A DNA stretch of 46,651 bases, from the NCBI GenBank assembly GCA_001871015.1, contig MNUO01000108.1, forward strand, positions 1-46,651, in the 5' to 3' direction. The notes beneath the pieces were generated by a model, which was given only the letters and a program-made list of their open reading frames with translations, was not told where the DNA came from and searched no databases. This DNA is from Candidatus Desantisbacteria bacterium CG1_02_38_46 (GTDB lineage: Bacteria > Desantisbacteria > UBA1551 > UBA1559). The translations under genes and the position numbers were made by a program. Within the stretch, counting starts at the first letter, position 1, and every line of letters starts with the position of its first letter. This document shows, one piece after another, positions 1,950 to 39,622 of the stretch.

Positions 1950-1952
1950 GCG

Positions 1953-2663
1953 ATGACTTATAATGTAAAGACTGAGAATTTTGAAGGTCCTATTGAATTA
2001 CTGCTGGACCTTGTGAAGAAAAATGAGATAGATATATATCAGGTATGGATTAGTAAAGTTACCGCTGAATACCTCAAACATCTAGAAATTGTACAATCTT
2101 TAAATCTGGATGAGGCACTTGAATTTCTTATTATCGCCGCGAGTTTAGTTTATCTAAAGTCTCGCAGTCTCCTTCCACAGGAGACACTTGAACTGGTAGA
2201 AGAAGAGGAGCAGTTAAAGAGGTCTCTCGAGAGCTATGCCCAGGAATACGATAAATTCAGACAGGTTGCCGACCACCTTAAGGAAAAAGCAATAATTGCT
2301 GCCGACCACTTTACCCGTCCTGTACCTGAGGAATTAAAAAAAGAAGAGTATATTGAAGCAACTCTGTTTGACCTTGTTTCTGCTTTTAAGAATATACTTG
2401 CTGAATCAGAAAAGAGGGAATATGTTAGAGAGATAACTCCCGAGGTGGTTACTGTGGAGCAGAAAATGGAAGAGATTATAAGTTTATTACAGGGTGAAAA
2501 TGCGACGGTTCAATTTAGCCGAATTTTTAAAAATGCATTAACCCGGCTTGAAATAGTGGTGTCGTTCCTGGCATTGTTAGAATTGATAAGACTGAGAAAA
2601 GTCCGGGCTATACAGAAAAAATTATTTGCAGAAATCGAACTTGTTGGAGTCCCATCATCTTGA
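1953..2663 (+). CDS. scpA: Segregation and condensation protein A
   Basis: MTYNVKTENFEGPIELLLDLVKKNEIDIYQVWISKVTAEYL and LVYLKSRSLLP typical ScpA; followed by scpB. Confidence 0.92.
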   Translation: MTYNVKTENFEGPIELLLDLVKKNEIDIYQVWISKVTAEYLKHLEIVQSLNLDEALEFLIIAASLVYLKSRSLLPQETLELVEEEEQLKRSLESYAQEYDKFRQVADHLKEKAIIAADHFTRPVPEELKKEEYIEATLFDLVSAFKNILAESEKREYVREITPEVVTVEQKMEEIISLLQGENATVQFSRIFKNALTRLEIVVSFLALLELIRLRKVRAIQKKLFAEIELVGVPSS

Positions 2664-2691
2664 TAGCTAAGGAAATTATACCAAAAGTGTT

Positions 2692-2830
2692 GTAACTCAA
2701 ACCTTTAGGTTTGATATCAGGACTAAAGTCCTGAGTTACAGCAGGTCAGGACTAAAGTCCTGAGTTACAGCAGGTCAGGACTAAAGTCCTGAGTTACGTA
2801 ACTCAGACCTTCAGGTCTGATTTTTCTTGA
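2692..2830. repeat. Cluster of palindromic repeats (TCAGGACTAAAGTCCTGAGTTAC family)
   Basis: Three copies of tcaggactaaagtcctgagttac (two with 29-bp period) between gtaactcaaacctttaggtttga and tcagaccttcaggtctga. Confidence 0.9.
2803..2825 (+). terminator. Terminator-like hairpin formed by a repeat unit
   Basis: TCAGACCT TC AGGTCTGA followed by TTTTT. Confidence 0.55.
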
Positions 2831-2847
2831 AATAATGGAGAGAAGAA

Positions 2848-3375
2848 ATGGAGTCAGCTCAAAATTTACCTCCCAAGTCAATAATAGAATGCTTACTTTT
2901 TGTCTCAGATGTTCCTCTGAATCCTCAAAGACTTGCCCATCTTACCGGGTTATTAGAGGAAGAAGTCAAACGGATTCTAATGGAATTAACCCAGGAGTAT
3001 GAGAGGGATGGTCGCAGTTTCAAGATTGCTGAGATTGCTGATGGATTTTTGATGTGTACGCGGCATGAATTTGCGCCATGGATAAAACTACTGTACGCAT
3101 CTCGAAACAGAGCAAAATTGAGCAAAGCGTCTCTCGAAGTTCTGGCGATACTTGCCTATCGACAACCAATCACAAGAGCAGAGATAGAGGCAATTCGAGG
3201 CGTAGACTGTAGCGGGGTACTGCACACCATTCTGGAGAGAAGGTTGATTAAAATTTCAGGGCGCAAGAAAGTTCTTGGTCGTCCGCTCCTTTACCGCACA
3301 ACAGATGAATTTCTGATTTATTTCGGATTAAAAGATCTTTCAGAATTGCCCCGCGTGGAAGAATTGCGTTTATGA
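2848..3375 (+). CDS. scpB: Segregation and condensation protein B
   Basis: ECLLFVSDVPLNPQRLA, LEVLAILAYRQPITRAEIEAIRGVDCSGVL, FLIYFGLKDLSELP typical ScpB. Confidence 0.93.
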   Translation: MESAQNLPPKSIIECLLFVSDVPLNPQRLAHLTGLLEEEVKRILMELTQEYERDGRSFKIAEIADGFLMCTRHEFAPWIKLLYASRNRAKLSKASLEVLAILAYRQPITRAEIEAIRGVDCSGVLHTILERRLIKISGRKKVLGRPLLYRTTDEFLIYFGLKDLSELPRVEELRL

Positions 3376-9919: not shown

Positions 9920-10923
9920 AGACAGATAATTATATGAATAATTCGTTAATAAGAAAATTAAGAAAAGAAGTCAACAGAGAAATTATTACAACTATTAGAA
10001 GTTTTTGTGAAATTCCAATTGCCTCCCAGATGTTGGGCTACCAGATGGGTTTGCTGAAAAACGAAAGTAAAGAAACACAGGGCAAGCGTTTTCGCCCGAT
10101 TTTGTGCTTACTTTCAAGCCTTGCAATAAACGGTGATTACAAAATGGCATTACCAGCTGCTGCAGCGATTGAGTTAATTCATAATTTTTCCCTGATTCAC
10201 GATGATATTCAGGACGAGGATGAATGCAGACGCGGCAGGAAGACGGTCTGGAGGAAATGGGGTAATAATCAGGCAATTAACGCAGGGGATGCAATGCATA
10301 CTCTTGCGAATATCGCATTGCAGAGATTATTTAAAATGAATTTGTCCCCGAAAGTCATTGATTCTGTTTTTTTCATAATTAATAATGCCTGTTATCAAAT
10401 GTGCGAGGGGCAAATGCTGGATATAGGTTTTGAAAAAAAGTGGAACGTTAGACTTCCTCAGTATTTACAAATGATTCGCAAGAAAACCGCCACCCTCATC
10501 CAGAGTGCTCCATATTGTGGTGCATTAATTGCCACGCAGAATCGAAGCGTGATTAGACATTACAAAAATTTTGGAGCTAATGTTGGAATGGCATTTCAAA
10601 TTTTCAATGACCTTTCAGGATGTGACGGTTCGGCTGCGCAGTTCAATCATTTTTACAGTGATTTGATAAAGAAGAAAAAGACTCTGCCAGTAATTCTTGC
10701 TTTCAAAAGTTTGGAATCGGCACAGAAGAGAAAGATAAAAGAAAGAGAAATGCTCAGCCTGTTTAAAGAATCCGATGCCATTCAGCATTCTCGAAGAATT
10801 GGCGAGAACTATTTAGAGAATGCACTTCTTGAACTGAATAAAACAGGTATCAAGAATCCATCGCAGGAATTATTAAAAGAATATATAAAAAAGGGGACAG
10901 GCTACTTTTCCCAAGGAATCTGA
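9916..10923 (+). CDS. Polyprenyl synthetase family protein
   Basis: [39 protein letters not shown]; second Asp-rich motif degenerate ([12 protein letters not shown]). Confidence 0.85.
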
Positions 10924-10955
10924 AATGTGTAGGTCTGACTACGTGCGGGGGTTTG

Positions 10956-11969
10956 ATGCGCATTGTTTTTATGGGAACACCTGAATTTGCTTTGCCGTCA
11001 TTAAATAAGTTGATTCAGACGCATAACATTTTGTGCGTGGTGACACAAACAGATAAACCAAAAGGCAGGGGAATGAAATTAACTCCTCCACCAATCAAAT
11101 TTCTTGCCCAGCAATTGAATATTCCTGTGGTTCAGCCAGGGAAAATTGGAGAAATTTCAGGATATTTAAAATCACTTTCTCCAGATGTAATTGTTGTGGT
11201 TGCTTATGGAGAAATTTTGTCAGAGGAAATTCTGAAAATTCCCAGATTTGGGTGTATTAACCTTCACGCTTCTCTTCTTCCAGAATTGCGGGGTCCAGAA
11301 CCCATTGCCTGGAGCGTTATTCTTGGCAAAGAAAAAACAGGGTTAACCACAATGTGGATGGATAAGGGAGTGGATACGGGTGACATAATTCTACAGAAGG
11401 AAATTGAAATTTTACCAGATGATACAAAAGGAAGTCTTGAGCAAAAAATGTCACTTACCGGCGCTGATTTTTTATGTGAGACACTAAAGATGGTTGAAAG
11501 CAGCAATGCCCCACGAAAAAAACAAGTCCGATGTCCCCCGATGGACATCGGGGGAATACGGACTCCGAACGCAAGCATCGGAGAGGGGAATCCAATTTAC
11601 GCTCCAATGATAAAAAAGTCAGATTGTCTGATTGACTGGTCAAAACCTGCATGGGAGATTCATAATCTCATCCGGGGATTAAATCCAGCGCCATCTGCAT
11701 ACACTTTCTTAGAAGGTAAACGTTTGAAAATTCACAGAACAGCCGTCAATGTAGGGCAAGAATGTAGCGGTGCAATGACTCCGAAAGGACGGAGTATACG
11801 GACTGTAGAGCAAGGCGAGATTATTGAAATCAAAGAAGATGAAATTCTCGTTGCTACTGGCGAAGGCATACTCTCTCTTCTTGAGATTCAACCTGAGGGC
11901 AAACGTGCAATGTCAGTGAAGGACTATTTACAAGGGCATTCTTTAAAAGAAAGAATGAAATTTGGATGA
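10956..11969 (+). CDS. fmt: Methionyl-tRNA formyltransferase with in-frame palindromic insertion
   Basis: MRIVFMGTPEFALPSL, GCINLHASLLPELRGPEPIAWSVILG, GLNPAPSAYT. Confidence 0.95.
   Translation: MRIVFMGTPEFALPSLNKLIQTHNILCVVTQTDKPKGRGMKLTPPPIKFLAQQLNIPVVQPGKIGEISGYLKSLSPDVIVVVAYGEILSEEILKIPRFGCINLHASLLPELRGPEPIAWSVILGKEKTGLTTMWMDKGVDTGDIILQKEIEILPDDTKGSLEQKMSLTGADFLCETLKMVESSNAPRKKQVRCPPMDIGGIRTPNASIGEGNPIYAPMIKKSDCLIDWSKPAWEIHNLIRGLNPAPSAYTFLEGKRLKIHRTAVNVGQECSGAMTPKGRSIRTVEQGEIIEIKEDEILVATGEGILSLLEIQPEGKRAMSVKDYLQGHSLKERMKFG
11529..11584. repeat. Palindromic insertion in fmt
   Basis: CCCCCGATGgaCATCGGGGG then acggaCTCCGAacgcaagcaTCGGAG. Confidence 0.8.
11778..11796. repeat. Second small palindrome in fmt
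   Basis: ACTCCGaaaggaCGGAGT followed by atacggact (shared with the 11529 element). Confidence 0.6.
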
Positions 11970-11990
11970 AGACAGCGGAATAATAAATAA

Positions 11991-13241
11991 ATGAACCTAA
12001 AAAGCATGCTGATTTTTTTTGATTTTAAATTCAGAAAATACAAAAAGATAAAATATCTTGGAATGCCACTGATGACTGAAGTCGGTAAAGCTATTCCTAA
12101 AGAATTATTTCTTAAATCAGCAGAAGATTTGAGGATGGTAAGTAAGGATAATAAAATAATTACGGAAAATAAAGATGAAATTAGTTTTATCCTGGACAGG
12201 GCAATTCATGACGTTCCCTGGCCCGAACAGCGATGGATTGAATACATCTGCGAACACAAAATCCAGGACTATACGCAAGAGCAACAGTTTTTTCTTAAAG
12301 CACATTTACAACCTTTTATCTCACTGTATGAAGCCCTGAAAATAGATTATAGGAGGGGTGTCTATCTGCGTGATTTGTTTAATGGCAAGGAGTTATTTTT
12401 AATGGATATAGGTTTCGGGACAACGGCAAAGAAGGGTATGTTGTTAGCAACGAGGGTTATCACTTTTGAAGGGTTAAATTTCACTGCAGGTGCTCCCATA
12501 CTCTTTAGACAAGAAGATAAGAAACAATTGGTAGAAAATTTCACTTTCCTGTACGAGAAAAAGAAAAATGAAATGACATGGGAAAAAATGATGCGAAAAT
12601 ACGCTCCCTATTTTTTTATTGAATACAGAAAAAGAGACTATACTGTCTATTTTGCAAACGTGACAGAGGATTCGATAACTCCTTTCTCTCTTCTAACAGC
12701 CGCATGGGATTACGCAAGAAAGAAAAATCTTATTAAGCACTCAGATGACTTTCCTGTGGAGCAGTGTTTAATCAATTCAAATTGGCAGAAAACAGGATTA
12801 GCCAGCATGGTTATCACCAGAAGCCAAAAAGATGGCAAACTGATTGTAGGTGTTTTTTTAGTGGATATTTTCTGTTTAGGGCTGAAGGATACATTTTTCA
12901 ATGCTAACATACCAGCTGATCAGTTTGAAGATATTTTTTTGCGTAAATATTATCAGAACACAGAACCAGTAACAATTGGCATTAACTATGCTAAAGAAAT
13001 TATATTTGGAGCGATAGATTATGCCAGAAAATTAGGATTTGAACCTCAAAAAAATTTCAAATTATCAAAATATGTTTTGGGAACAGAAAAACTGACATAT
13101 CAGCATAACATTAAATTTGGAGGGCCTGAGGGGAAACCATTATATATTGCAGGGCCTTACGATGATTACAAAAAAATTGTTCGTCAGCTTACAGAACTTT
13201 TGGGAGAAGGCGGATTCCATTTTATCCTACCTTCAGAATAA
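11991..13241 (+). CDS. Hypothetical protein (416 aa)
   Basis: Long ORF in operon direction; no family recognised. Confidence 0.7.
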   Translation: MNLKSMLIFFDFKFRKYKKIKYLGMPLMTEVGKAIPKELFLKSAEDLRMVSKDNKIITENKDEISFILDRAIHDVPWPEQRWIEYICEHKIQDYTQEQQFFLKAHLQPFISLYEALKIDYRRGVYLRDLFNGKELFLMDIGFGTTAKKGMLLATRVITFEGLNFTAGAPILFRQEDKKQLVENFTFLYEKKKNEMTWEKMMRKYAPYFFIEYRKRDYTVYFANVTEDSITPFSLLTAAWDYARKKNLIKHSDDFPVEQCLINSNWQKTGLASMVITRSQKDGKLIVGVFLVDIFCLGLKDTFFNANIPADQFEDIFLRKYYQNTEPVTIGINYAKEIIFGAIDYARKLGFEPQKNFKLSKYVLGTEKLTYQHNIKFGGPEGKPLYIAGPYDDYKKIVRQLTELLGEGGFHFILPSE

Positions 13242-13331
13242 TCATATGTATCATCTTTTACTTCTAACGTGAAAGCATTAAGTAAATGTTAAATATTTAA
13301 CGTTTGTATTAAATACAAGGAGGTATAAAAA

Positions 13332-13808
13332 ATGTTTACTGGACAAAAAACAAGAATTTTTAAAAAAATGGTCGCTGTTACTATTTTTGGACTGGTGTGC
13401 TCAAACCTGATATTTGCGCAAGCAGTGCAGACAATTTATTCTAGCGGTACGGTATATCTTCCTGATGTATGTCCACAGAGTTGCATTGCAGTGCTAACTG
13501 TAAATGTTGTCTGGAAGGATTTCCCTGCCTCTCAGGGTGGCACTGGACGCAAAATAGTTGAGGAAGCAACCTTCACAGGAAAAGAAGGGGAGAGGGAAAT
13601 TAAATTTACAGGTGTCAGGATTACTCCATCTTTTTTCCGGGGAGAGATTTCACTGAATGTGCAGTGTGAAATTAAAAAAGGCGATATGGTGGTGGCAAGA
13701 TTTAAGATGGATGGAGAAGATGCAAACAGCCCGAAGCCGATGAGTTATAATGAGGCGGTTGCCGGTAATCTGCTGAATCTGAAATTGAAAATGAAAGCAG
13801 CAGAGTAA
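13332..13808 (+). CDS. Hypothetical exported protein; C-terminus/stop inside a repeat
   Basis: RBS aaggaggt; N-terminal signal peptide KKMVAVTIFGLVCSNLIFAQA. Confidence 0.7.
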   Translation: MFTGQKTRIFKKMVAVTIFGLVCSNLIFAQAVQTIYSSGTVYLPDVCPQSCIAVLTVNVVWKDFPASQGGTGRKIVEEATFTGKEGEREIKFTGVRITPSFFRGEISLNVQCEIKKGDMVVARFKMDGEDANSPKPMSYNEAVAGNLLNLKLKMKAAE

Positions 13809-23477: not shown

Positions 23478-23501
23478 CTTTTATTTTTTTTGTGTTATAA
23501 T
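23474..23501 (+). promoter_or_regulatory. Sigma70-like promoter of nikR
   Basis: TTGACT-N16-TATAAT; -35 abuts the repeat. Confidence 0.65.
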
Positions 23502-23532
23502 TATTAAAAATGTAATATGGAGGTAGGTCCGA

Positions 23533-23946
23533 ATGCCAGAGTTGCAGCGTTTTAGCGTCTCGCTTGATAAAAATCTTATAATTAAATTTGATAAACACAT
23601 TAGAGAAAGAGATTATTCTACACGTTCAAAAGCAATTGGTGACTTGATTAGAGAAGATTTGGTCAAGAAAGAGTGGGTTGGCGGGAAAGAAGTTGCTGGC
23701 GCAGTTACATTAGTTTATAACCATCACAAAAGGGAATTGGTGAATAAGTTAATTAACATTCAACACGACTTTCACGATTTGGTTCTTTCCTCGCAACATC
23801 TTCACCTTGATGAAGAAAATTGTCTGGAAATTATAGCGGTAAAAGGGAATCCCAAAGAAGTGGAAAAACTGGCTCATATACTAAAAGCTACAAAAGGTGT
23901 AAAGTATGGTTCTGTAACTATGGCCACAACCGGAAAAGAAATATAG
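23533..23946 (+). CDS. nikR: Nickel-responsive regulator NikR (ribbon-helix-helix + ACT-like)
   Basis: RFSVSLDKNLIIKFDKHIRERDYSTRSKAIGDLIRE; VYNHHKRELVNKLINIQHDFHDLVLSSQHLHLDEENCLEIIAVKG. Confidence 0.93.
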   Translation: MPELQRFSVSLDKNLIIKFDKHIRERDYSTRSKAIGDLIREDLVKKEWVGGKEVAGAVTLVYNHHKRELVNKLINIQHDFHDLVLSSQHLHLDEENCLEIIAVKGNPKEVEKLAHILKATKGVKYGSVTMATTGKEI

Positions 23947-24131
23947 CAGTATTATTTTTTTCTTCAATTGTAACACGAATTTTAAAAATATAATACAATA
24001 TGAGGTTTGAAACGAGAGGGGGTGATTCCAAAAAGAGATGAGATGTGAAGGTAAAAAAACAAGAAGGCAGCCCTGTCGGTAAACAAGAACTGCCTTCCTG
24101 ACGGTACCTGTGTTACACAAAGGTAAACCCA

Positions 24132-24168
24132 GGCCCGCTTATGACATATATAATATCATAAGTCGGGT
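24132..24168. promoter_or_regulatory. Candidate operator/inverted repeat upstream of the TonB receptor operon
   Basis: ggcccg-CTTATGA-N11-TCATAAG-tcgggtc, arms nearly perfect over 13-14 nt. Confidence 0.5.
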
Positions 24169-24196
24169 CAAATGTCAATAAAAAGGAGGCTCGACG

Positions 24197-26209
24197 ATGG
24201 AAAAACAGCAAATGGTAAGAGTTAAGAGAGTTATATTGGCAGGAGTGCTGGTTTTTGGTTTGGCAAATCAGATTTGTGCCGAAGAATCAGCAACTTACGA
24301 ATTAGGGGAAATAGTGGTAACGGCAACGAAATTGGAGGAATGGACTAAGAATATTCCTGCAACTGTGAATGTAATTACTGCCGAGGAAATTGAGAAATCT
24401 CAGGCAAAAAGTATGACAGAAGTTTTGGAGGATGTTGCAGGAGTAAGTCTTTCTGCGTCAGACGCGAGTGGAAGGAATCCTGTGCTGACTCTGCGAGGTG
24501 TGTATGATTACAATTCCAGTCATGTGCTTGTGCTTGTGGATGGGGTACCGATTAATTCACCGGATACAGGAAAGCCCTATCTGAATGCAATTCCTTTAAA
24601 CAATATTGAAAAAATAGAAATTGTAAAAGGCGGCAATTCTGCGGTATGGGGCGGCTATGCAATGGGAGGCGTGGTAAATATTATTACTAAGAAAGGAAAG
24701 AGAACTGGTGCAAAAGCTTCTGTTAGTTTAGGGGAATGGAAAACAAATATTATGAATGTTTCAGGTGAAGCGGTTTTACCATGGGATATTGCTTTTAGTT
24801 TGAACGCGGGCTCAAAAACAAGTGACGGCTACAGACAATATTCCAATTATGATATGCAGAATTTCGGAGGTTCTCTTTCCAAAAATGATGAAAAACTGGG
24901 ATATAAGGCATCTTTGAGTTTTGGGTATTATAATGAGAGTTGTAAATATCCAGGAACTTTAACTGAGACGCAATGGGAGAACGGCCAGTATCAAGTCGGT
25001 GACCCAAATTACTGGTGCAGTGATGGCAGGCAGAATAATGCTTATCTAAGATTGGGATTTGAAAAACACTTGCCATTCAATCTTTGCGCAAAAGCGGATA
25101 TAAATTACCTGAAGAAGGGTTATACATTTTATTACCGCAAAAAAAATACACCAAATGTAGAAAAAGCAGATATAAATGATGTCTCTGTTCCTGGGGGAGG
25201 AGTGCAACTCAGCGGAGAAGTTTTAAAAAATGCATTTACCCTCGGATGGGAGATGAAAACAGGATATGTAGATAGCAGGAATCATCCTGCTAATTCTGCA
25301 ACACTGGAAATTAATAAAAGCACAATAAAAGACAAGTACAAGTATACAACTCTTAATTATAGTGCTGTTTATCTTCAGGATATGTGGAAGATTTTTGATT
25401 GGCTGAACATAAATATGGGGATAAGATATGATGCGCTTGCTCATAAAATTGAGGATAGAAAAGCAGGTAAAGAATATCTTCCAAAAACAGATGCATGGAG
25501 TCCGAATTTCGGCGTAATGTTCAGGCCAATTGCCCATGTTGGATTGTTTGCATCAATAAGCCAGGCATTCAGACTGCCAACAGAATCTCAGTTTTGCCAA
25601 ACACCAGAGTTAAGACCTGAAAAAGGCATTAATTATGAGGTTGGAACAAAAATTTCAACTCAAAGAGCTTCTGTTGATATAAGTGTCTATCAGATGGATG
25701 TGACTGACAAAATTGCATACGATACAGACCCTGCCGGTTGGAAGTATCGCAACATTGGTGCGGTCAAACATCAGGGTGTGGAACTTAGCAGCAGGGTGAA
25801 AATTTTTGAAGGTTTAAGTGCCAGGATTTCAGGGGATATGATAAAAACCGAGATTATCAGTGACCCCAAGAATCCGGAGACAATAGGGAAAAATTTTAAT
25901 CAGGTTCCACTTTGGAAGGTTTCTCTGGGATTGGAGTATGCAAGCAGGGAACCGGGTTTTGTAGCAAAAATAGATATGCGCAAGGTTGGAGAATGGTATA
26001 TGGACACAAAAAATGAAGTGACATACCCGGGTTATTTTGTTACAGATGTGAAACTTTCCTGGAAGAAGAACGGTCTGGGTTATTTTATCTCCTGCAACAA
26101 TGTGCTTGATGAAAAATATTGCCGCAAGGCGGATATCTCAGGAACAACAAAGCGTTATTCTCCTGCTCTTCCAAGAACATTTTCTGCAGGGATGAGCATA
26201 GAACTTTAA
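24197..26209 (+). CDS. TonB-dependent outer membrane receptor (BtuB/FepA-like)
   Basis: Signal peptide; ELGEIVVTATKLEEWTKNIPATVNVITAEEI plug; GGVVNIITKKG; C-terminal barrel strand. Confidence 0.93.
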   Translation: MEKQQMVRVKRVILAGVLVFGLANQICAEESATYELGEIVVTATKLEEWTKNIPATVNVITAEEIEKSQAKSMTEVLEDVAGVSLSASDASGRNPVLTLRGVYDYNSSHVLVLVDGVPINSPDTGKPYLNAIPLNNIEKIEIVKGGNSAVWGGYAMGGVVNIITKKGKRTGAKASVSLGEWKTNIMNVSGEAVLPWDIAFSLNAGSKTSDGYRQYSNYDMQNFGGSLSKNDEKLGYKASLSFGYYNESCKYPGTLTETQWENGQYQVGDPNYWCSDGRQNNAYLRLGFEKHLPFNLCAKADINYLKKGYTFYYRKKNTPNVEKADINDVSVPGGGVQLSGEVLKNAFTLGWEMKTGYVDSRNHPANSATLEINKSTIKDKYKYTTLNYSAVYLQDMWKIFDWLNINMGIRYDALAHKIEDRKAGKEYLPKTDAWSPNFGVMFRPIAHVGLFASISQAFRLPTESQFCQTPELRPEKGINYEVGTKISTQRASVDISVYQMDVTDKIAYDTDPAGWKYRNIGAVKHQGVELSSRVKIFEGLSARISGDMIKTEIISDPKNPETIGKNFNQVPLWKVSLGLEYASREPGFVAKIDMRKVGEWYMDTKNEVTYPGYFVTDVKLSWKKNGLGYFISCNNVLDEKYCRKADISGTTKRYSPALPRTFSAGMSIEL

Positions 26210-26224
26210 AGGACAGGTATTAAA

Positions 26225-27088
26225 ATGGACAGGAAGACATGGGCAGGGATAATGCTTTTGGTTATTTCTGCCCTGTGCATCAGCATTTTTTTGTCGGGGG
26301 ATAGAAAAGGGAGTAAGCCCGTAAAAGGACCTCCTTACCAGAGGATTGTTTCTCTTTCTTCTACCACAGAGATTCTCTGTGATTTGGGAGCAGTAGATAA
26401 AATAATAGGAATTGGCGGTGTAAGCAAAAAATCTCCTTATTATGAAATTCTTAAAGATAAACCACAGATTGGAGGTGGGTTTCACAACCTCAACATAGAG
26501 AGAATTTTGGGTCTTAAACCAGATTTAGTCTTCTGCTGGAAAGCGCATGCGGATGTTCTCAAATCAAGGGATTTGAATGTGTACCCCACAGGTCCTTATG
26601 ATATAGAGGGGATAATGGAGTTAATAAAGGATGTGGGCAAATTTGTTGGTAAAGAGAAAGAAGCAGAAAAAACTATTTTTGATATGAAAACGAAAATAAA
26701 TAAGATAGAAGAAAAATTAAAAAATGCCGGTAGCCAGCCACTTGTTTATTTTGAAGCAGGAACGTTAGGCAAGTCAAGGGCTAAAGGTTCGCTCACGCAT
26801 GATTTAATTACAAGGGCAGGGGGAATAAATCTTGCAAAGGATGAACCGGTTCCATTTCCTTTATTAAGTAGTGAATGTATAATTGAGAAAAATCCGGACA
26901 TTATTATTGTTGAGGAATATGGCGCTCCTGTTGAAGAGATAAAAGCTCGCAGGGCATGGCAGAATATAAAGGCAATAAAAAACAACAGGGTTTATCAAAG
27001 TCCTGTGTATTATACCAATTACACTCCAAGGTGTCTTGAGGGGTTGGAACAATACGCTAAATGGTTTCATCCCGAGGTTTTTAAATGA
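26225..27088 (+). CDS. ABC transporter substrate-binding protein (BtuF-like)
   Basis: RIVSLSSTTEILCDLGAVDKIIGIGGVSK..., ILGLKPDLVFCW. Confidence 0.88.
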   Translation: MDRKTWAGIMLLVISALCISIFLSGDRKGSKPVKGPPYQRIVSLSSTTEILCDLGAVDKIIGIGGVSKKSPYYEILKDKPQIGGGFHNLNIERILGLKPDLVFCWKAHADVLKSRDLNVYPTGPYDIEGIMELIKDVGKFVGKEKEAEKTIFDMKTKINKIEEKLKNAGSQPLVYFEAGTLGKSRAKGSLTHDLITRAGGINLAKDEPVPFPLLSSECIIEKNPDIIIVEEYGAPVEEIKARRAWQNIKAIKNNRVYQSPVYYTNYTPRCLEGLEQYAKWFHPEVFK

Positions 27089-28092
27089 AACAAAAAATAA
27101 TTCTTTCTGTTTTGTGCACTGTGCTTTTTCTAACTTTGCTTTCAACCCTGACGATTGGTCCGGTGCATATTCCGATAAAAACAGTTGCAAAAATTCTCCT
27201 GTCTAAGATTTATAATATCCAAGCAACATGGCCAGAGAATTTTCAATCAATAATACTTTTTGTCCGGTTTCCACGAATACTGTTAGGTATTCTTGTTGGT
27301 TGTGCTTTAAGTGTTTCCGGCTGTGCGATGCAGGGTATGTTCAGAAATCCTATGGCAGATTCTTATGTCTGTGGCATTGCATCAGGGGGAGCGTTTGGAG
27401 CTTCTCTGGTTATTATTTCCGGGATGGGGCGGGGCTTGATTATGCCTGTTGCATTTGGTTTTTCCCTGCTCGCAATATTTATCGTCTATTATCTTGCAAA
27501 GACAGGTAGGAAGGTTCCTGTTGAAACTCTGCTTCTTTCAGGTATAGCGATTTCTCTTTTCTTTTCAGCGCTTACTTCTTTTATCCATTACATTTCCGAA
27601 GAATGGCAGTGGCGCGAGATGATTTTCTGGATTATGGGAGGTTTATGGAAGAGTGACTGGAATAGAGTTGCAAGCAGTTCCCCGATTATTATTCTGGGCA
27701 CATTGGGGTTAATGTTTTTTAGCAGGGAATTGAATATTCTTTTAATAGGCGAAGAACAGGCACAGGACTTAGGGGTTGAAGTGGAGAAAACAAGAAAAAT
27801 TATCCTTGTTTTAAGTGCACTTGTAGCTTCTTCTGCGGTTGCTGTGTCAGGTATCATTGGTTTTGTAGGATTGATTATTCCTCACACGATGAGACTTATC
27901 ATAGGTCCTGACCATCGATTTCTTCTTCCGGCATCCTGTCTTGCCGGCGGCATATTCCTTGTCTGGGTTGATACAATTTCCCGCACTCTAATTTCTCCAA
28001 GCGAACTTCCAGTTGGTATTATTACTGCGTTGTTCGGGGTTCCGTTCTTCCTGTTCTTGTTGAGAAGAAGAAAGAAGATAATTGGATTTTAA
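27085..28092 (+). CDS. FecCD/BtuC family ABC transporter permease
   Basis: RFPRILLGILVGCALSVSGCAMQGMFRNPMADSYVCGIASGGAFGAS; GFVGLIIPHTMRLIIGPDHRFLLP. Confidence 0.94.
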   Translation: MKQKIILSVLCTVLFLTLLSTLTIGPVHIPIKTVAKILLSKIYNIQATWPENFQSIILFVRFPRILLGILVGCALSVSGCAMQGMFRNPMADSYVCGIASGGAFGASLVIISGMGRGLIMPVAFGFSLLAIFIVYYLAKTGRKVPVETLLLSGIAISLFFSALTSFIHYISEEWQWREMIFWIMGGLWKSDWNRVASSSPIIILGTLGLMFFSRELNILLIGEEQAQDLGVEVEKTRKIILVLSALVASSAVAVSGIIGFVGLIIPHTMRLIIGPDHRFLLPASCLAGGIFLVWVDTISRTLISPSELPVGIITALFGVPFFLFLLRRRKKIIGF

Positions 28093-28093
28093 G

Positions 28094-28879
28094 ATGAAAT
28101 TAAAGGTTTCCCATCTGAATTTTTCTTATGATGATGTTGAGGCGCTGGAAGATGTTTCTCTGGATGTGGAATCCACACAAATTCTGGGAATCATCGGACC
28201 GAATGGTTCCGGGAAAACAACACTTCTTAAATGCATAAACAGAAAGTTAAGACCCCGCTACGGGACAATATTGATTGACACTAAAAATATCTCTAATTTT
28301 TCGCGCAAAGAAATTGCAAGAAATATAGGTGTGGTTCCTCAGGTTTCCTCAATTTCTTTTTCATTTCTTGTATCTGACATAGTCTCAATGGGAAGATACG
28401 CGTATCTTTCAAGATTTGGCAGGGAAACAGAGAAGGACTTATCAGCAGTCAAAAGTTCATTAGAACTAACTGGAACCGCACATTTATCCAATAGGTTCAT
28501 TAATGAAATTTCAGGCGGGGAATATCAAAGAGTAATTATTGCCAGGGCATTAGCACAAGAGTCAAAAATTCTCCTTCTGGATGAACCAACATTACACCTG
28601 GATATCAATCACCAGATAGAAATCCTGGAATTAGTGCGTTCGCTTGCAAGAAAAAGAAATCTTGCAGTAATAATGGTTTTGCATGATTTAAACTTATCTG
28701 CCCGGTTTGCAGACAGGTTGCTCCTCTTGAATAAAGGCAGGGTTTACAAGGCCGGTTCTGTGGAAGAGGTGCTTCAACCAGAGAACATAGAGAAGGTTTT
28801 CCGGATAAAGGTCAAAATAATCCGTGATACTGAGACAAACATATTGAGTGTTCTCCCGGTTTCAGTAATGAAAGGATAA
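28094..28879 (+). CDS. ABC transporter ATP-binding protein (BtuD/FecE-like); ATG at 28094 preferred over the track start at 28082
   Basis: GPNGSGKTTLL, ISGGEYQRVIIARALAQ, LLLDEPTLHLD. Confidence 0.94.
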   Translation: MKLKVSHLNFSYDDVEALEDVSLDVESTQILGIIGPNGSGKTTLLKCINRKLRPRYGTILIDTKNISNFSRKEIARNIGVVPQVSSISFSFLVSDIVSMGRYAYLSRFGRETEKDLSAVKSSLELTGTAHLSNRFINEISGGEYQRVIIARALAQESKILLLDEPTLHLDINHQIEILELVRSLARKRNLAVIMVLHDLNLSARFADRLLLLNKGRVYKAGSVEEVLQPENIEKVFRIKVKIIRDTETNILSVLPVSVMKG

Positions 28880-28881
28880 AA

Positions 28882-31800
28882 ATGAAGAAAGAGCCATGGA
28901 TTGGGTTTTATCATCCGGGATGCAACAGTGTTTTTCAGCAAAAAGCTGATTATGTAAGGTGGTACGAAAAACAGCAGCCTCATTTAAAATACTGCGCTTC
29001 AAAAAAGGTTGGGATATTTTTCTCCCGTTCCCAGTGGATAAAAAAAGATATGAGGTTAGTTAATTTATTGCTTGAAGAACTTGAGAAAAGAAAAATTTTT
29101 CCTGTTGCTGTTTTTGCTCAAGCCAGGGAATACGGTGGTCCGGGATGTCCTGGCTTGGAGCCGGGCCTGAAATTGTTGAAGGGAGTTGATTTTATAATAA
29201 ATCTGCAATCATCTTTTCTTGTTCAATCTGCCATCGGGAAAGAATCATTGCCAGGTATTCTGGAAGATATAGGTGTTCCGATTATGCAGGCAGTGCATGA
29301 AAGCTCAAGGACAGAGACGGAATGGAAAGAAAATCCTCAAGGGTTAAGTCCATCTGTCCAGATTTACTGGGTGGCACAACCGGAATTCAATGGACTGATT
29401 GAACCCATTCTTGTTTCCGCAAAGGATGAAAGCAGAAAAAGCGAAGGGGGTTTTGGCGGTCCGAGGAAGCCGGTGAAAGAAAGGATAGACTTTCTCATAG
29501 AAAGAATCTCTGGCTGGTTAACATTATCCCGAATTCCGCCTCAAGAGAGACGGGTAACCTTCCTTTTGCATAACGCTCCCTGTGCAGGGGTAGAAGCTTC
29601 TGTAGGAGGAGGGGCCGGGCTGGATACGCTGGAAAGCGTTGTAAGAATAATGAAGCAGATGAAAGAAAGAGGATATAAAATAGAAAATTGTCCGAAAGAC
29701 GGCAGGGAATTGATTGATATAATTATGCACAGAAAGGCAGTCAGCGAATTTCGCTGGACAACCATAGACGAAATTGTCCAGAAAGGAGGGGTCAGGGAGT
29801 TTATCAGCGTAGAAAAATACAATCAATGGCTGGATGAATTAAGTCCTGCAACAAGAGAAAAAATGATTTCAGGATGGGGCAATCCTCCAGGGGAAGGAAT
29901 GGTTTATCAGGGGAAAATCGTTGTTACCGGAATTAAATTTGGCAATGTGAATGTGCTTGTTGAACCAAAAAGAGGCTGTTACGGGGCAAGGTGTGACGGA
30001 AAGGTGTGCAAGATTCTCCATGACCCTGGTATTGCCCCCACACATCAGTGCCTTGCTACCTATAAATGGGCAGAGGAAAATTCTGATGTAAAAATTTCCG
30101 TAGGAACTCATGGATACATAGAATTTCTGCCGGGTAAATCAGTTGGATTGAGCAGGGAATGCTTCCCGGAAATTATTACTGGCAAAAAACCGCATTTGTA
30201 TATTTATACGGTTGCCAATCCCGCAGAGGGAATACTTGCGAAGCGGCGCGCGTCCGCCACAATTATTGACCATATGACGCCAGTGATGAAGCCATCAGGA
30301 CTTTATGATAAATTAAACGAAATGGAAGAACTCTTAAAGCAGTGGACTCAAGCAAAAAGTCTGAACCAGGAAAGCCGGGCAAAAGTTATTCTAAAAGATA
30401 TTTTTTTTCTTGCTGAGAAGTCTAATCTTATTGAAAAAGGCAAAGAGGTGCCAGTAGAAAATTTAATTGAATATTTGCACGGGAAGTTAAATCTTTTTCG
30501 GGAAACGCAGATAAATGATGGAATGCATATTTTAAGTAAAATTCCTGACAGGAAAGGTATTGCGAACATAATTGTTTCTATTCTTCGCTTTGAAGGGACG
30601 TGGCCATCCATAAGAAGGTTAATTTTAGAGACAATAGGTTATAATTACGGCACAGACCATTCAGAGCTGCTGGATAGAACTACTGGGATTGCATTTGAAC
30701 TGGTAAAAACCGGGTTGAATATAAAACTGGATAAAGAGAGCAGGGTAATATCATCACAGAAATTGAAAAAGAAAATTTCTGAATTGATGGAGGTAAAGAA
30801 TAAGGATAAGGCAAAAGAATTAATCCGGCTTATTATGTGGGCAGCAGAAGTAATTTACCCGAAGTTAAAGATGGTTAAAGGAGAAATACCGCAGCTTTTA
30901 AGGGCTTTTGATAAGGAGTATATACGGCCTGGCGCCAGTGGCCACATAACTCGCGGGAAAATAGAAGTGTTACCCACAGGTAGAAATCTGTACAGTATGG
31001 ACACTCGCGCAATCCCCACAAAAGCCGCGTGGGAAGTGGGAATTAAAATGGCACAGGGCTTGCTGGATAAATATCGCAGAGACGATGGGAAATATCCGGA
31101 GAATATCGGAATGGTTTTGTGGAGTATTGACGCTTACCTTGCTGATGGAGAACAGATTTCCAAGATTTTATATCTGATAGGTGCAAGACCCGTCTGGATG
31201 GAGTCGGGGATTGTAAAGGGGACAGAGGTTATTCCTTTGAAGGAACTTGGAAGACCGCGTCTGGATGTGACCATAAGGACAAGCGGTATTTTCAGGGATA
31301 CCTTGCCTCATATAATAGAATTACTTGACGAAGCAATCTGTAAGATAGCAAATCTTGATGAGAGTGATGAAGATAATTTTGTAAAGAAACACGGGGCTGG
31401 CTATCGGATTTTCTGCGCACGGCCAGGCGGCTATGGCAACGGCGTAAGCTTAATGATTGCAGCCAGTGCATGGGAGAATATGAAGGATTTGGGAGAAATT
31501 TATATCGAAAGGGGTGGCTATGCCTACGGGAAAGGAGTTTACGGAAAGGCCTCGCATAATGAATACGCACATCGTCTGAGCAGTGTGGAGGTAGTTTTTC
31601 ACAAACTGCCTTCCGACGAATTTGACATTCTGTCCTGTTGTAGTTTTTTTGATTTTCAGGGGGGGATGTACTCGGCAGTCAAGTCTCTTTCAGGAAAAGA
31701 ACCCAGAATTTACTGGGGTGATACAAAAGACCCGCAGAGGCCAAAAATTAGAGACCTAAAGGATGAAATAGAAAAATCTGTGCGCACAAGACTTCTGAAT

Positions 31801-32250
31801 CCTGCTTGGATTGAAGGAATGAAAAGACATGGATATAAAGGAGCAGGTGATATTTCCAAAAGAATCGGGCATGTTTATGGTTGGGATGCATCTGCAGAAG
31901 TAGTGGCTGACTGGATATTTGATGACATTGCAAAAGCCTTTGTTTTGAATGATGAAAACAGGAAATTTTTTGAGGATAATAATCCCTGGGCGATGGAAGA
32001 AATTTCGCGCCGCTTACTGGAAGCAGAAAAACGCGGCATCTGGAAAGCAGACCCCGATGTTTTAAGGGAATTGAGAAACAAATACCTGGAAATCGAAGGG
32101 TGGATAGAAGAAAAAATGGGAGATGTCCAGGGAGAATTCCAGGGAGGAAACATTGATATAATAACAAAGAATGAGATTGAAGACTGGGCAAAGAAATCAA
32201 ATTTTGATTTGGAAGAGTTTTTAAAAACAGGAGGGAAGAATGCACCATAA
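28882..32250 (+). CDS. CobN/BchH-family tetrapyrrole chelatase large subunit-like protein
   Basis: 1122 aa; [94 protein letters not shown]. Confidence 0.92.
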
Positions 32251-34204
32251 ATATGTTGTTTATCCATTTACTGCAATTGTGGGCCAGGAAAAAATGAAAA
32301 AGGCACTTATTCTTAATGCTATAGATTGGAAAATAAGCGGAGTTTTGATTCGCGGAGAAAAGGGAACTGCAAAATCTACTGCTGTCCGGGCACTTGCGGC
32401 CCTACTTCCAGAAATAGAGGTGGTTGCTGATTGTCCTTTCAGCTGTAACCCATATGAGCTGAGAGAGATGTGTAAATCCTGTCAGGAACGTAAAAAATCA
32501 AACCAGAAAATTTCGGTTAAAAAGAGGAGAATGCTTGTTGTGGACCTGCCAATCAATGCAACTGAGGACAGGGTTATCGGAACGTTGAACATAGAAAAGG
32601 CATTGAAGGAGGGAACCAAGGCCCTGGAGTCGGGCATACTCGCAGAAGCAAACAGAGGGATATTATACATAGACGAAGTAAATCTTTTGGATGACCACAT
32701 TGCCGACGTTCTTCTGGATGCTGCTGCAATGGGAGTGAACATTATAGAGAGAGAAGGCATATCTGTTTTTCATCCGGCCAAATTCATTCTTATTGGGACT
32801 ATGAATCCCGAAGAAGGGGAATTGAGGCCGCAGCTGCTGGACAGGTTCGGATTAAGCGTCCGTGTGGAAAAAATAGAAGATAGAGAAAGAAGGGTAGAAA
32901 TAATCAAACTAAGAGAAGAATTCGATGCCGATTCATTTTCTTTTGAGAAAAGGTTTGGCAAATTCCAAGATGGAATGCAGAAGAAAATAATTAAGGCAAG
33001 AGATATTCTGCCCAAAGTCAACATCCCGGAAGACCTTTTGTCGAAAATCAGCCAGACCTGTATAGAATTTGCAGTGGACGGATTGAGGGCAGATATTATT
33101 ACTGCAAAGACAGCAAAGGCAATTGCCGCTTACGATTGTAGAGAGAAAGTAAATGAAGCTGATATTCTTGAGGCGCTTGAATTTACGCTTGAACACCGTA
33201 TGAGAAAGAATCCTTTTGAGAAACCCGAGCTAGACAGAGAGAAATTAAGGCAGACAATGGAAAAGGCAGGTCAAAAAGAGAAAAAATCCCCACCACAGAA
33301 CGATAAGCAAAAAGATTCACCTCGGCAGGATAAAGAAAAATCCCGGGAAAACCCTTCTGCAAAACCAGGAATTCCGAAAGAAGAAATTTTCAAAATAGGG
33401 GATGGTATAAAAACAGATAAAATGTTTAATGTTAAAAAAGACAGAATCTATCGCAATTCCACGGGCAGGAGCGTAAAGACACTTACGAAGTCAAAACAGG
33501 GGAAGTACGTAAGAACAAAACTGCCGAAAGGAAAAATCAGAGACATTGCAATCGATGCCACCATCCGGGCAGCTGCCGTTAATAAAAAAAACGGTGGGTT
33601 TAAGATAAACATTGAGGACATCCGTGAGAAAATAAGGGTTGGGAAAGGAGCTTCACTTGTGGTGTTTGTAGTAGATGCCAGCGGTTCTATGGGGGCAACT
33701 GAGAGAATGAAGTCAGCAAAGGGAGCTATATTTTCCTTTCTTAACAGAGCATACCAGAAAAGAGACAGAGTGGCTATGATTGTCTTCAGAAATAAAGAGG
33801 CTTATACCTTGCTCCAGCCGACAAGAAGCATGGATCTGGCAATGAAAAAACTTGAGGAGATTCCTACAGGAGGAAAAACACCTCTGCCAGCAGGCATTTT
33901 GAAAGGGATGGAAACAATTAAAAGTGAACTTATTAAGAACGATAATTTGATTCCTGTGTTGGTATTAATAACTGACGGTAAAGGAAATGTGCCAATAGAA
34001 GAAAATGTTTTTAATGAACTTAAATATTGTGCCGATGAAATTAAGAAACGGAATCTGCGGACAATTGTAATAGATACAGAGTCCGGTTCTCTTAGATTCG
34101 GTCTCGCAAAAGAATTTGCAGAAGATTCAAAGGCAAAATATTATCATTTAAATGAAATAGAACCAGGGAAGATCGCGTCAATTGTTAGTTCAGAGGTGCG
34201 TTAG
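32240..34204 (+). CDS. ChlI-ChlD/BchI-BchD-like AAA+ ATPase fused to VWA domain (Mg/Co-chelatase motor subunit)
   Basis: [31 protein letters not shown] Walker A, C-x6-C-x2-C cluster, [16 protein letters not shown] (MIDAS). Confidence 0.93.
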
Positions 34205-34656: not shown

Positions 34657-34779
34657 TTATATTCTATTTTCTCTAATTGTAAAGATCTTTTTCAAAAAAC
34701 TCACAACATAATGCGTGCCAAGAAGTTCTTTGATTTCTAATTGACTGAAAGGTGTCAATCATCGTAATTGTCTGTTAGC

Positions 34780-36607
34780 GATGTAGTCTGAGATGCAATA
34801 TGTGGAGAAATCTGCAGTGTTGTAGCTATTTGACAAATTCCGCTTTAGGCGGGAGAGGCAAACAAGCAGACCGTAACAAAAGTGAACCTATATGTAGCCT
34901 CGTTAGGAGTAAATGGGAAAGGCGAGCCTGTGTTATGTGGGCGAAGCCAGTAATCTATCCCAAGAGACAGATAAAAGCAGGATAGATTTTCTCCGGGGTA
35001 ACAGGGACGGTATGCTTGGAAAGAACTCAAGGGAAACTTGGGAGAGCCTACCCTATCACTCGTAAGGAGTAAAACTTTTGCCTATAACCGAAAGGGAAGT
35101 GGCAATAAGGGTAGGGAGGTAGTCGGAGGAGTTCATAGTAGCGAAGAGAATAGGGACAACAAAACCCTATATGAGCGAAGGAACTCTGCTTTAACTAATG
35201 TTTTCAAAGAAAGGATGGATTTAGTAGATTGGACAATAACCTACCAACTACGGATAAAGTTCAGGAATTTCAGAGAAAACTATACCTTAAGGCAAAGTCA
35301 CAGCCAAACTTCCGCTTCTATGCTTTATACGACAAGATTTATCGAACAGATGTCCTTCAAAAAGCCTGGCAAAGAGTGAGATTAAATCACGGTTCGCCAG
35401 GCATAGATGGGAAAACCATCAAGGACATTGAAGAGGCAGGAGTGGAAGATTTTCTTAAAGGCATTCAGCAAGAGCTGAAAGCAAAGGAATATCAACCATC
35501 GCCAGCGAGGAGAGTTTATATCCCCAAGCCTGATGGCAGGTTAAGACCATTGAGCATACCTACTCTAAAAGATAGGGTTGTTCAGATGGCTTTAAAATTG
35601 GTAATTGAGCCTATTTTCGAAGCACACTTCGAGGATAACTCATATGGATATAGACCTCAAAGGAATGCCCAGCAGGTAGCTTTGGAAATCCGTAAATATC
35701 TTAATTACGGAATGACCGAAGTTATTGAGGCTGACCTTGAAGACTGTTTTGGTTCTATTCCTCACAGGGAACTTCTGGATATGATTGCCAGAAGAGTAGT
35801 TGATGGTAGGGTGCTACACTTAATAAAACTATTCCTGAAAACAGGAGTAATGGAGCAAGGAGGGAAAAGGATAGACGAGACAGGCACTCCACAGGGCGGG
35901 GTAATATCGCCATTATTGGCAAATATATACCTTGACCAGATGGATAAAGGCTGGAAGCCATTAAATGAAACTGCCCGTCTTTTAAGATATGCAGATGATT
36001 TGGTGATTATCACCAAATATAATGCAGAGAAATTTCTCTTTGAACTTCAGAAACTTACTACTAAATTGAAGTTAAAACTTAAGCCAGCAAAAACAAGAGT
36101 AGTAAATGCAGAAGAAGAAAGTTTTGACTTTTTGGGATATAGTTTTAGGAAAGCATTGAACCCACAGAAGACGAAGAAGGTAGCATATTTTTGGCCATCA
36201 CAGAAGGCAGAAAAGACAATAAAAGAGAAAGTGAGGAAGATTACAAATCCTGCTCGACCTGTAAAGGTAGGGCAAGTGATAAAAGAACTCAATCCAGTAA
36301 TTAGGGGATGGGTAAATTACTTTAGAATAGGCAACTCTACAAAGAAATTCGATAATCTTAAGTTGTGTGTAGCAGAGAAAATTAGGAAGTTTATGCGTAG
36401 ACGCAGGCAGAAGGCAGGATATGGATATAAGAAATATCCTGATGAATATCTATACAGCAAATTAGGTTTGTATAGAGACTATCATCTTGCGTGGACGAAA
36501 GCCTTAAGATGAGCGGTTATCGGAAAGCCGTGTGAGGGAAAACCTCACGCACGGTTTGATGAGGGGACGCTGAAAACCCTGTGAGGGCGTCAGTGTTCTA
36601 CTCTACG
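34780..36607 (+). mobile_element. Group II intron with internal RT ORF (boundaries approximate)
   Basis: Structured ~450-nt 5' leader, RT ORF, then GGAAAGCCGTGTGAGGGAAAACCTCACGCACGGTTTGATGAGGGG...GTGTTCTACTCTA 3' end typical of group II introns. Confidence 0.85.
35229..36512 (+). CDS. ltrA: Group II intron reverse transcriptase/maturase
   Basis: GSPGIDGKTI, RPLSIPTLKDRVVQMALKLVIEPIFEAHFEDNSYGYRPQRNA, GTPQGGVISPLLANIYLDQMD, LLRYADDLVI (YADD). Confidence 0.96.
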   Translation: MDNNLPTTDKVQEFQRKLYLKAKSQPNFRFYALYDKIYRTDVLQKAWQRVRLNHGSPGIDGKTIKDIEEAGVEDFLKGIQQELKAKEYQPSPARRVYIPKPDGRLRPLSIPTLKDRVVQMALKLVIEPIFEAHFEDNSYGYRPQRNAQQVALEIRKYLNYGMTEVIEADLEDCFGSIPHRELLDMIARRVVDGRVLHLIKLFLKTGVMEQGGKRIDETGTPQGGVISPLLANIYLDQMDKGWKPLNETARLLRYADDLVIITKYNAEKFLFELQKLTTKLKLKLKPAKTRVVNAEEESFDFLGYSFRKALNPQKTKKVAYFWPSQKAEKTIKEKVRKITNPARPVKVGQVIKELNPVIRGWVNYFRIGNSTKKFDNLKLCVAEKIRKFMRRRRQKAGYGYKKYPDEYLYSKLGLYRDYHLAWTKALR

Positions 36608-37843: not shown

Positions 37844-39622
37844 ATGAATATGAGAAAAAGTAAAGATTTGTGGGACATAACCGATAAGCCGTCTACTAGA
37901 ACAAAACTTAAAATATTGAGAAAGTGTTTTGATATATGGCTTACAATTTGGAATAAGCAAGGCTGGATAGACAATGAATGGTATATTATGGATCTTTTTG
38001 CAGGAAGAGGTAAATATTCTAGTGACAAGGACACAGTAAGTGGTTCTCCGCTTATTTTTCTTGAAACAATTGCCAGTAAGAAAAAGGATTTGGAAAAGAA
38101 AAATCGTAAGATAAATCTTTTTCTTGTTGAACAAAAGAAAAGAAATTACAAATATCTTAAAAATAACATTGATGGGTTTATGGCGAGCAACAAAGGTTTA
38201 GAAAATGTTGTTGCGATAATAGACTTTAAGAACGATTGTAATAAAATCATAAATAAAATTATAGATTCAATAGAAAATACAAACAAGCACCCTCTTTTTG
38301 TTTTAATAGATCCCTCAGGTATACAGATAAAAGAATCTACAATGGAAATGATTGTGAATTTGAAAAATCCAAAAGAGATATTGTTGAATTATATGTTAGA
38401 AGGAGTTAGAAGGACTAGCGGAATATTGAAGAAGGGACATCGTGGCGAAACTTTAACTATAAAAGAATTAAAAACAGTAGAAACCTTAAAAGCATTTATT
38501 GGTAAGAATGTTAATATAATTAATGTAAGTGACAGGAAAATTTTAGAAGATTATGTAAGCATATTCACTTCACAAGGATTAAAAGTAATTGGATATGATA
38601 TGAAATATCCAGATAGAGATGACATATTATATTACCTTTTATTTGCCTCCAGAAAATTATCAATTACGAACATCGTAAAAGACATCTATGGCAGCCAAAA
38701 AGAAGAAGACCTAGGTTCCACTCTGTTTGGTGGGAAAGATTTTTATAAAAAGGAGATTTTTAGCTTAAATTCAGGATTAGGAAAAACAGAAAGAAAATCT
38801 CTTTTATATAGAACTAAAGTAGAATATGGGAATTGGACAATTAATCACGTTACTGGATGTATGCATGGATGCAAATTTCCTTGCTATGCTATGATGATGG
38901 CAAAAAAATTTGGATGGATTAAAAATTATGAAGACTGGAGAAGTCCCAAAATTGCCACAAATGCATTGGAAATTCTGGAAAAAGAGATTCCTAAATATAA
39001 AGATGAAATTGATTTTGTTCATCTTTGTTTTATGTCTGATCCGTTTATGTACAACTCTGAAAAAGAGGATTTAATTCCCGAGATAAAAAGTTTAACTTTA
39101 AATATAATTGAGAGATTAAATGCAGAGGGAATAAAAGTGACTACCTTAACAAAAGGGATTTATCCTGATGAAATTTTAGATACCAGAAAGTTTTTGCAGT
39201 TCAACGAGTACGGTATAACTTTAGTTTCTCTAAACAAAGATTTTAAAAAGGATTTTGAGCCATTTTCAGCACCTTATGAAAAAAGAATAGAGTCTTTACA
39301 AAAATTAGCTAAAAAAGGATTAAACACTTGGGTAAGTATGGAACCTTATCCTACCCCAGAACTGGATAATACATCAGCAAATATTGAAAAAATCTTACAG
39401 GGCATTTCATTCGTTAAGAAAATAATATTTGGCAAATTAAATTATCACAGAATTGCTTATTGTAACGGCAATAGTGTCCACATATGGAAAAATAATGAAG
39501 ATTTTTATAAAGAAATGGCTAAAAGAGTAATAGATTTTTGTAGTAAGAATGACATAAAGTATCACATTAAATTTGGCACACCGTTAAGTAAAAGAAATAC
39601 AATAAATATTTTTAAGAAGTGA
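37844..39622 (+). CDS. Fusion protein: N-terminal TcmP-like domain + C-terminal three-Cys-motif/radical-SAM-like domain
   Basis: N-term LWDITDKPSTRTKLKILRKCFDIWL...YIMDLFAGRGKYSSDKDTVSGSPLIFLE; C-term NHVTGCMHGCKFPCYAMMMAKKFG (CX3CX3C) and rSAM-like HLCFMSDPFMYN. Confidence 0.75.
   Translation: MNMRKSKDLWDITDKPSTRTKLKILRKCFDIWLTIWNKQGWIDNEWYIMDLFAGRGKYSSDKDTVSGSPLIFLETIASKKKDLEKKNRKINLFLVEQKKRNYKYLKNNIDGFMASNKGLENVVAIIDFKNDCNKIINKIIDSIENTNKHPLFVLIDPSGIQIKESTMEMIVNLKNPKEILLNYMLEGVRRTSGILKKGHRGETLTIKELKTVETLKAFIGKNVNIINVSDRKILEDYVSIFTSQGLKVIGYDMKYPDRDDILYYLLFASRKLSITNIVKDIYGSQKEEDLGSTLFGGKDFYKKEIFSLNSGLGKTERKSLLYRTKVEYGNWTINHVTGCMHGCKFPCYAMMMAKKFGWIKNYEDWRSPKIATNALEILEKEIPKYKDEIDFVHLCFMSDPFMYNSEKEDLIPEIKSLTLNIIERLNAEGIKVTTLTKGIYPDEILDTRKFLQFNEYGITLVSLNKDFKKDFEPFSAPYEKRIESLQKLAKKGLNTWVSMEPYPTPELDNTSANIEKILQGISFVKKIIFGKLNYHRIAYCNGNSVHIWKNNEDFYKEMAKRVIDFCSKNDIKYHIKFGTPLSKRNTINIFKK

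Follow-up and report, generated by a model that had tools for sequence, protein, structure and literature searches.

Large subunits of the CobN type work in several described systems. In late B12 synthesis they belong to the cobaltochelatases CobNST and CobN-ChlID, and the Mg chelatase, in which BchH/ChlH is combined with I and D subunits, shares their fold and has a three-part ATP-driven architecture. In Bacteroidota, the haem de-chelatase HmuS of the hmu operon (PMC12583661) has a CobN-superfamily body with an HG motif containing the catalytic His-538, and is encoded together with a TonB receptor. HmuS is membrane-anchored, NADH-dependent and ATP-independent, it works without ChlID, and its metal is bound by Asp1208-His1209. 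The same 2025 paper points to CobN-annotated proteins of methanogenic archaea, and to related clusters, that have no association with cob genes and whose functions are unclear.

As regards nickel, the Helicobacter importers FrpB4, FecA3, NikH and FecDE/CeuE combine NikR control with TonB receptors and a FecCD-class importer; they have neither CobN nor ChlID, and the nickel species are thought to be simple complexes (PMC3856676). The NikR regulons of delta-proteobacteria use the operator consensus GTGTTAC-N13/14-GTAACAC, in either orientation, and have nikMQO and hydrogenase genes as targets (Rodionov et al. 2004, PMC545781). The targets given there include no CobN/ChlID operon, and one two-gene NikR target of D. 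psychrophila was left unassigned. A search of the open literature, with subscription journals and preprints outside its scope, yielded no description of NikR combined with CobN or cobaltochelatase, of F430 salvage or of nickel-tetrapyrrole import.

A NikR-linked operon with a chelatase

The window is the whole stretch of 46,651 nucleotides of Candidatus Desantisbacteria DNA that was analysed. A preliminary description had reported nikR, a TonB receptor, a BtuF/C/D-type importer, a CobN-like protein and a fused ChlI-D protein on one strand at 23533-34204 (+), and all seven genes proved to be real. The features are as follows.

23492..23518, no strand assigned: candidate NikR site upstream of nikR, GTGTTATaattattaaaaatGTAATAT, with 3 mismatches to GTGTTAC-N13-GTAACAC
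23533..23946, + strand: nikR, nickel-responsive ribbon-helix-helix regulator (NikR_C 3e-30; above the NCBIfam NikR cut-off)
23949..23996, no strand assigned: candidate NikR operator in the nikR-receptor gap, three evenly spaced half-sites GTATTAT-N14-GTAACAC-N13-ATAATAC
24134..24167, + strand: hairpin CCCGCTTATGA..TCATAAGTCGGG in the leader, directly before the receptor gene
24197..26209, + strand: TonB-dependent outer-membrane receptor, with a hydrophobic N-terminal signal
26225..27088, + strand: BtuF/IsdE-like periplasmic binding protein (profile matches; hydrophobic N-terminus)
27085..28092, + strand: FecCD/BtuC-type permease (profile matches)
28082..28879, + strand: BtuD-type importer ATPase (TTG start; an ATG 12 bases downstream is the alternative)
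28882..32250, + strand: CobN-like class I chelatase large subunit with a Cys motif (1122 aa; PF02514 1100 bits)
32240..34204, + strand: fused ChlI-ChlD motor subunit, AAA+ plus VWA (TIGR02442 776.4 bits against a cut-off of 779.45)

A gap of 250 bp separates nikR from the receptor gene. The gene junctions after the receptor are, in order, +15, -4, -11, +2 and -11 nt, and the downstream genes are therefore read as an operon. For the receptor, the top-scoring model is that of a haem-receptor subfamily, with a score below the cut-off. The motifs of the motor subunit are intact (Walker A GEKGTAKS, Walker B ILYIDE, MIDAS DASGS). A check of N-terminal hydrophobicity revealed no signal or membrane segment in either the CobN-like protein or ChlI-D; the former thus lacks a membrane anchor of the HmuS type.

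Two options for the leader were considered and rejected. The strong hairpin has no Rfam match and its fold is not significant (z = -1.47), so a structured RNA at 24000-24196 was discarded, as was a cobalamin or other known riboswitch, for which no match was found upstream of the operon.

The CobN-like protein and its cysteines

Three marks of the class I chelatase superfamily are present, namely the CobN/Mg_chel fold, the invariant HG motif and an AAA+/VWA motor partner. The protein nonetheless stays below the cut-off of every NCBIfam equivalog for CobN or BchH (at best 1303 bits against 1468; for TIGR02257, 793.5 against 822). Its AlphaFold model has a mean pLDDT of 70.8 and a pTM of 0.65, and the best PDB match of this model in Foldseek is the CobN of M. 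tuberculosis (7c6o), followed by ChlH and HmuS.

Two trees were calculated, a quick tree with 61 rows and a mixture-model tree with 31. The CobN proteins adjoining cob genes form one supported clade (100/99), in a reference set that comes mostly from plasmid records and under-samples the diversity of B12 CobNs, and in which three of the nine B12-group members (L046, L054 and L056) are from unannotated records and were grouped by tree position, not by context. The protein of the window lies outside this B12-context clade, in a separate one with the relatives found by scanning and with archaeal proteins (SH-aLRT 88 in the quick tree; 94/93). BchH, which served as the outgroup, and HmuS, which sits on a long branch, fall outside the CobN clades. 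The analysis thus supports the view that the protein represents a subfamily of its own, adjoining its own ATPase motor.

Nine members of the clade were compared with four B12-group CobNs, one BchH and one HmuS. The comparison gives five clade-specific cysteines (C234, C366, C371, C376 and C919), which are invariant in 26 aligned relatives; C920 is conserved in at least 90% of them. Three of the cysteines form a CX4CX4C motif (C366-x4-C371-x4-C376) in the equivalent of the active-site lid-loop, and nearly all clade members have the pattern C[AY]GxxC[DN]GxVC. In our own alignment, with the published HmuS numbering, C376 is aligned with Phe-502 in the lid-loop region. The LSLDH motif, which holds the metal-binding Asp1208/His1209, is matched by the GCC[CS] stretch. 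The full LSLDHxxEFMGG metal-site motif of HmuS is absent from the window protein in the alignment. At the active site, H410 and E414 have been retained; the conserved H410 corresponds to His-538 of HmuS. The clade cysteines could form a thiolate-rich metal site or ligate an Fe-S cluster; the modelled cysteine loops have a pLDDT below 50, so distances between the cysteines cannot be judged.

A CobN subfamily that is common to anaerobic bacteria and archaea of the ANME and methanogen lineages, and that carries clade-specific cysteines, is a new finding, and the cysteine signature offers a simple marker for its annotation.

The preliminary description had drawn an analogy with HmuS. It holds at the level of the proposed job, metal harvest, and in the likenesses of a TonB receptor operon, the CobN-superfamily body and the HG motif, but not for the rest: HmuS is set apart by its membrane anchor, NADH dependence and ATP independence, cysteine stands here in place of the Asp-His pair, and the operon adds an ABC importer, a motor subunit, NikR and the extra cysteines. 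The Mg chelatase differs as well, since the window operon has no chlorophyll context and the region of the VDH motif is replaced by cysteines.

Predicted nickel control, related loci and the host

The sites in the window were scored against the delta-proteobacterial consensus (PMC545781). The region of the candidate site upstream of nikR has a simulated P of ~0.017, while the operator in the nikR-receptor gap has 2 mismatches and a simulated P of ~0.002. Within the latter, 23949-23976 fits the pattern GTRTTAY-N14-RTAAYAC exactly, as no other place in the 1.73 Mb of the genome does. This is supportive only, the pattern having been picked after the site was seen; one-mismatch matches occur at control level. 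A palindrome CTTATGA-N11-TCATAAG was also considered as a NikR site, but its spacing is unlike that of known sites, and the GTRTTAY half-sites were preferred to it. The regulator of the window is the sole NikR in a search of the host genome. Its residues H78, H89, H91 and C97, which we take to be the equivalents of the nickel ligands of E. coli NikR, are invariant across eight aligned NikRs.

Scanning the collection gave 40 related loci, from sulfate reducers, Thermodesulfovibrio, Thermodesulfobacterium, Bacillota and ANME-1/Methanosarcinales. By similarity of gene content, the recurrent string is receptor-BtuFCD-[ABC-2 ATPase and permease]-CobN-ChlI-ChlD, often with TonB/ExbB/ExbD genes; the ABC-2 pair is found in many relatives and is missing from the window operon. 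In L022 (Smithella), the order tonB-receptor-BtuFCD-ABC2-CobN-ChlI-ChlD-nikR is followed by nikMQ with an ATPase gene and by a [NiFe]-hydrogenase, and L028 reads hypE-nikR-tonB-receptor-BtuFCD-ABC2-CobN-ChlID, again followed by a hydrogenase. Perfect NikR consensus sites occur twice in the 644 kb of the window and related loci, and in none of six simulations. One of them is ~22 bp before cobN (L008), and the other is beside the cobN operon of L022, between nikMQO and the [NiFe]-hydrogenase.

A number of observations count against the nickel reading. The candidate sites of the window depart from the published consensus by 2–3 bases, no recognisable NikR site was found at the operons of L034, L030-L033 and L020 (none with ≤2 mismatches upstream in L030, L032, L033, L034 and L020), and NikR was found in only 16 of 29 genomes, some of which are incomplete. 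On the NikR contigs of relatives (L110-L116), nikR does not adjoin the operon, and contig ends are often near. Nevertheless, the nickel control suggested in the preliminary description is supported by predicted sites on both sides of nikR, degenerate in the window and perfect in two relatives, together with the nik, hyd and hyp neighbours of relatives. The predicted link between the operon and nickel control is well supported, and strong for a purely sequence-based case.

Some minor features of the related loci can be mentioned here. In L030-L033, of the Thermodesulfovibrio/Thermodesulfobacterium lineages (L032 being Thermodesulfobacterium thermophilum DSM 1276), CobN is encoded in two pieces by separate genes (~800 and 489 aa), and in L005 two different Cys-CobNs (3-3185 and 9992-13402) flank one receptor/ABC-2/BtuFCD cluster on the same contig. 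The ANME-1 loci lack the receptor and have additional Gate-domain proteins, and some contain NifH/NifDK-like genes: NifH-like genes flank the Cys-CobN loci at L010 100-5716 (here also NifDK-like), L029 18842-19720 and L038 21999-22940, and may belong to a tetrapyrrole-reducing system. In the ANME-1-type loci L017 (1312) and L024 (790), a palindrome TTATGAT-N12-ATCATAA lies directly before cobN, possibly an archaeal NikR-like operator.

The host genome consists of 133 contigs with a total of 1.73 Mb, is 88% complete and encodes a single CobN. The statement that cobalamin genes are lacking, made earlier for the window, is correct and can be extended: at this completeness no corrin-ring methyltransferase was found genome-wide, the lone TP_methylase reading as the rRNA enzyme RsmI. 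The host does contain corrinoid proteins (L102), and a second importer at a separate locus, with the order BtuF-rSAM-BtuC-BtuD, behind which come two matches to the cobalamin riboswitch and then a gene for a BtuB-like receptor. The tandem matches (L109, 4709-5221) score above the gathering threshold in one case and just under it in the other. Because this second receptor/BtuFCD set sits with cobalamin riboswitches, B12 import is assigned to it, and it acts as an internal control, which leaves the importer of the window as the one linked to NikR.

The window system has the fold, the motor subunits and the catalytic scaffold of a B12 cobaltochelatase. It is set apart by its separate clade, the lack of a detected corrin pathway in the host, the lack of a riboswitch match, the clade cysteines and the candidate NikR sites. 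The original reading largely survives the test set for it: none of the three findings that would have told against it, a CobN firmly within the B12 clade, a complete cob pathway elsewhere and a lack of NikR sites, was obtained. The tree, the missing pathway and the separate riboswitch-linked importer support the conclusion that the operon would not serve B12 synthesis.

Candidate users of nickel are encoded in the same genome. The CODH catalytic subunit and pieces of ACS are present, at contig ends, together with a group-4-like [NiFe]-hydrogenase large subunit that has both Cys pairs, whose best profile is NuoD and whose class rests on the motifs RICGIC and DPCYCC. NikM/CbiM was not found in the genome. 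A nickel demand of the host is thus plausible.

Proposed function and alternatives

The reading that we prefer, and hold with about as much confidence as doubt, is a NikR-repressed operon for nickel acquisition in an oxygen-avoiding bacterium. It would take up nickel in chelated form, most probably as a nickel tetrapyrrole, and use ATP to strip the metal from its carrier. When nickel is scarce, NikR would leave its sites and the operon would be expressed, as the sites and what is known of the family suggest. Judging from the protein families, the chelate would reach the cytoplasm through the TonB receptor and then the ABC importer of BtuF/C/D type, the probable cargo being F430 or its breakdown products, or Ni-porphyrins. 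There the CobN-like subunit, with the fused ChlI-D protein as its ATP-consuming motor, would take the nickel out, and the freed metal would go to hydrogenase and CODH/ACS assembly. The cysteines near the predicted metal site would be suited to accept a soft metal, and the adjacent ABC-2 transporter of many relatives may discard or recycle the empty chelator.

Removal is preferred over insertion on two grounds: expression would be expected under nickel shortage, and the ABC importer would deliver its cargo to the cytoplasm, where CobN and ChlI-D sit; it appears to be the better fit to a nickel-repressed importer. It is important to point out, however, that all characterised CobN/ChlH enzymes with ATP motors of which we know insert metal, and that the known de-chelatase HmuS works without ATP; both points count against ATP-driven removal. 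The lack of the ABC-2 pair in the window operon likewise tells against the full scheme. The cargo can be questioned too, since siderophores and simple nickel complexes are further substrates of importers of the BtuFCD type (Helicobacter FecDE/CeuE, PMC3856676).

This last point leads to the alternative that survives best, although we consider it unlikely: the cargo would be a small non-tetrapyrrole chelator, and CobN/ChlI-D would have taken on the new task of freeing the nickel from this carrier or of loading it elsewhere. Nickel control, the best-supported part of the case, would be retained, and Helicobacter does import nickel with NikR-repressed TonB receptors and FecDE/CeuE and no chelatase (PMC3856676). 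However, the CobN/ChlH/HmuS relatives characterised so far all act on tetrapyrroles, H410 and E414 are retained, and metallophore synthesis genes were not found in the operons examined.

Somewhat less probable is that a metal-free or precursor tetrapyrrole is imported and that the chelatase inserts nickel, giving an F430-like cofactor or a nickel store. This would agree with the direction of the known ATP-driven class I chelatases, the NifH/NifDK-like genes near the ANME-1 module are reminiscent of the F430 ring reductases, and an earlier proposal had CobN-like proteins insert nickel in methanogens (PMC3087415). A nickel-repressed operon would, however, build the cofactor only under nickel lack, and neither an F430-type user enzyme nor ring-modifying genes are seen in the window operon.

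We regard as improbable that B12-like molecules are imported and their cobalt replaced or removed, even though the host uses corrinoid proteins, cannot make corrins by the evidence above and has a BtuFCD-like importer here. Namely, the riboswitch matches accompany the other BtuB/BtuFCD locus, the window operon has candidate NikR sites instead, and its relatives adjoin nickel genes. Finally, an HmuS-type haem-iron harvest with an added ATP motor, for which one could cite the best-scoring receptor model and the place of HmuS, a homologue of CobN, in an operon with a TonB receptor (PMC12583661), is hardly credible in view of the predicted control by NikR and not by iron, the separate long branch of HmuS, the missing LSLDHxxEFMGG motif and the missing membrane anchor.

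Returning to nickel acquisition, the observation of the preliminary description was sound, and its interpretation is partly supported. A more specific proposal is tentative and, in our judgement, somewhat more likely wrong than right: the cysteine-lined subfamily would be a Ni-tetrapyrrole de-chelatase, with which bacteria scavenge F430 debris or Ni-porphyrins, strip the nickel at the expense of ATP and export the empty ring. The CobNs of unclear function would then receive a concrete assignment to nickel, through import and chelatase chemistry, and the archaeal-type CobNs their first role. If true, this would be a nickel counterpart of haem-iron harvesting and a biological recycling route for F430, nickel tetrapyrroles would circulate as a nutrient currency where oxygen is lacking, and many genomes annotated with cobaltochelatase would need re-reading.

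Outside the operon, a group II intron with a reverse transcriptase/maturase gene (35229-36512) is located at 34746-36606, directly downstream, and the 3' end of a second one lies near the start of the window (202-286). Further on, a 592-aa ORF (37844-39622) has a radical SAM/DUF5131-like C-terminal part and an N-terminal region that has no Pfam match and reads as resembling TcmP. Such parts are usually encoded as separate partner genes.
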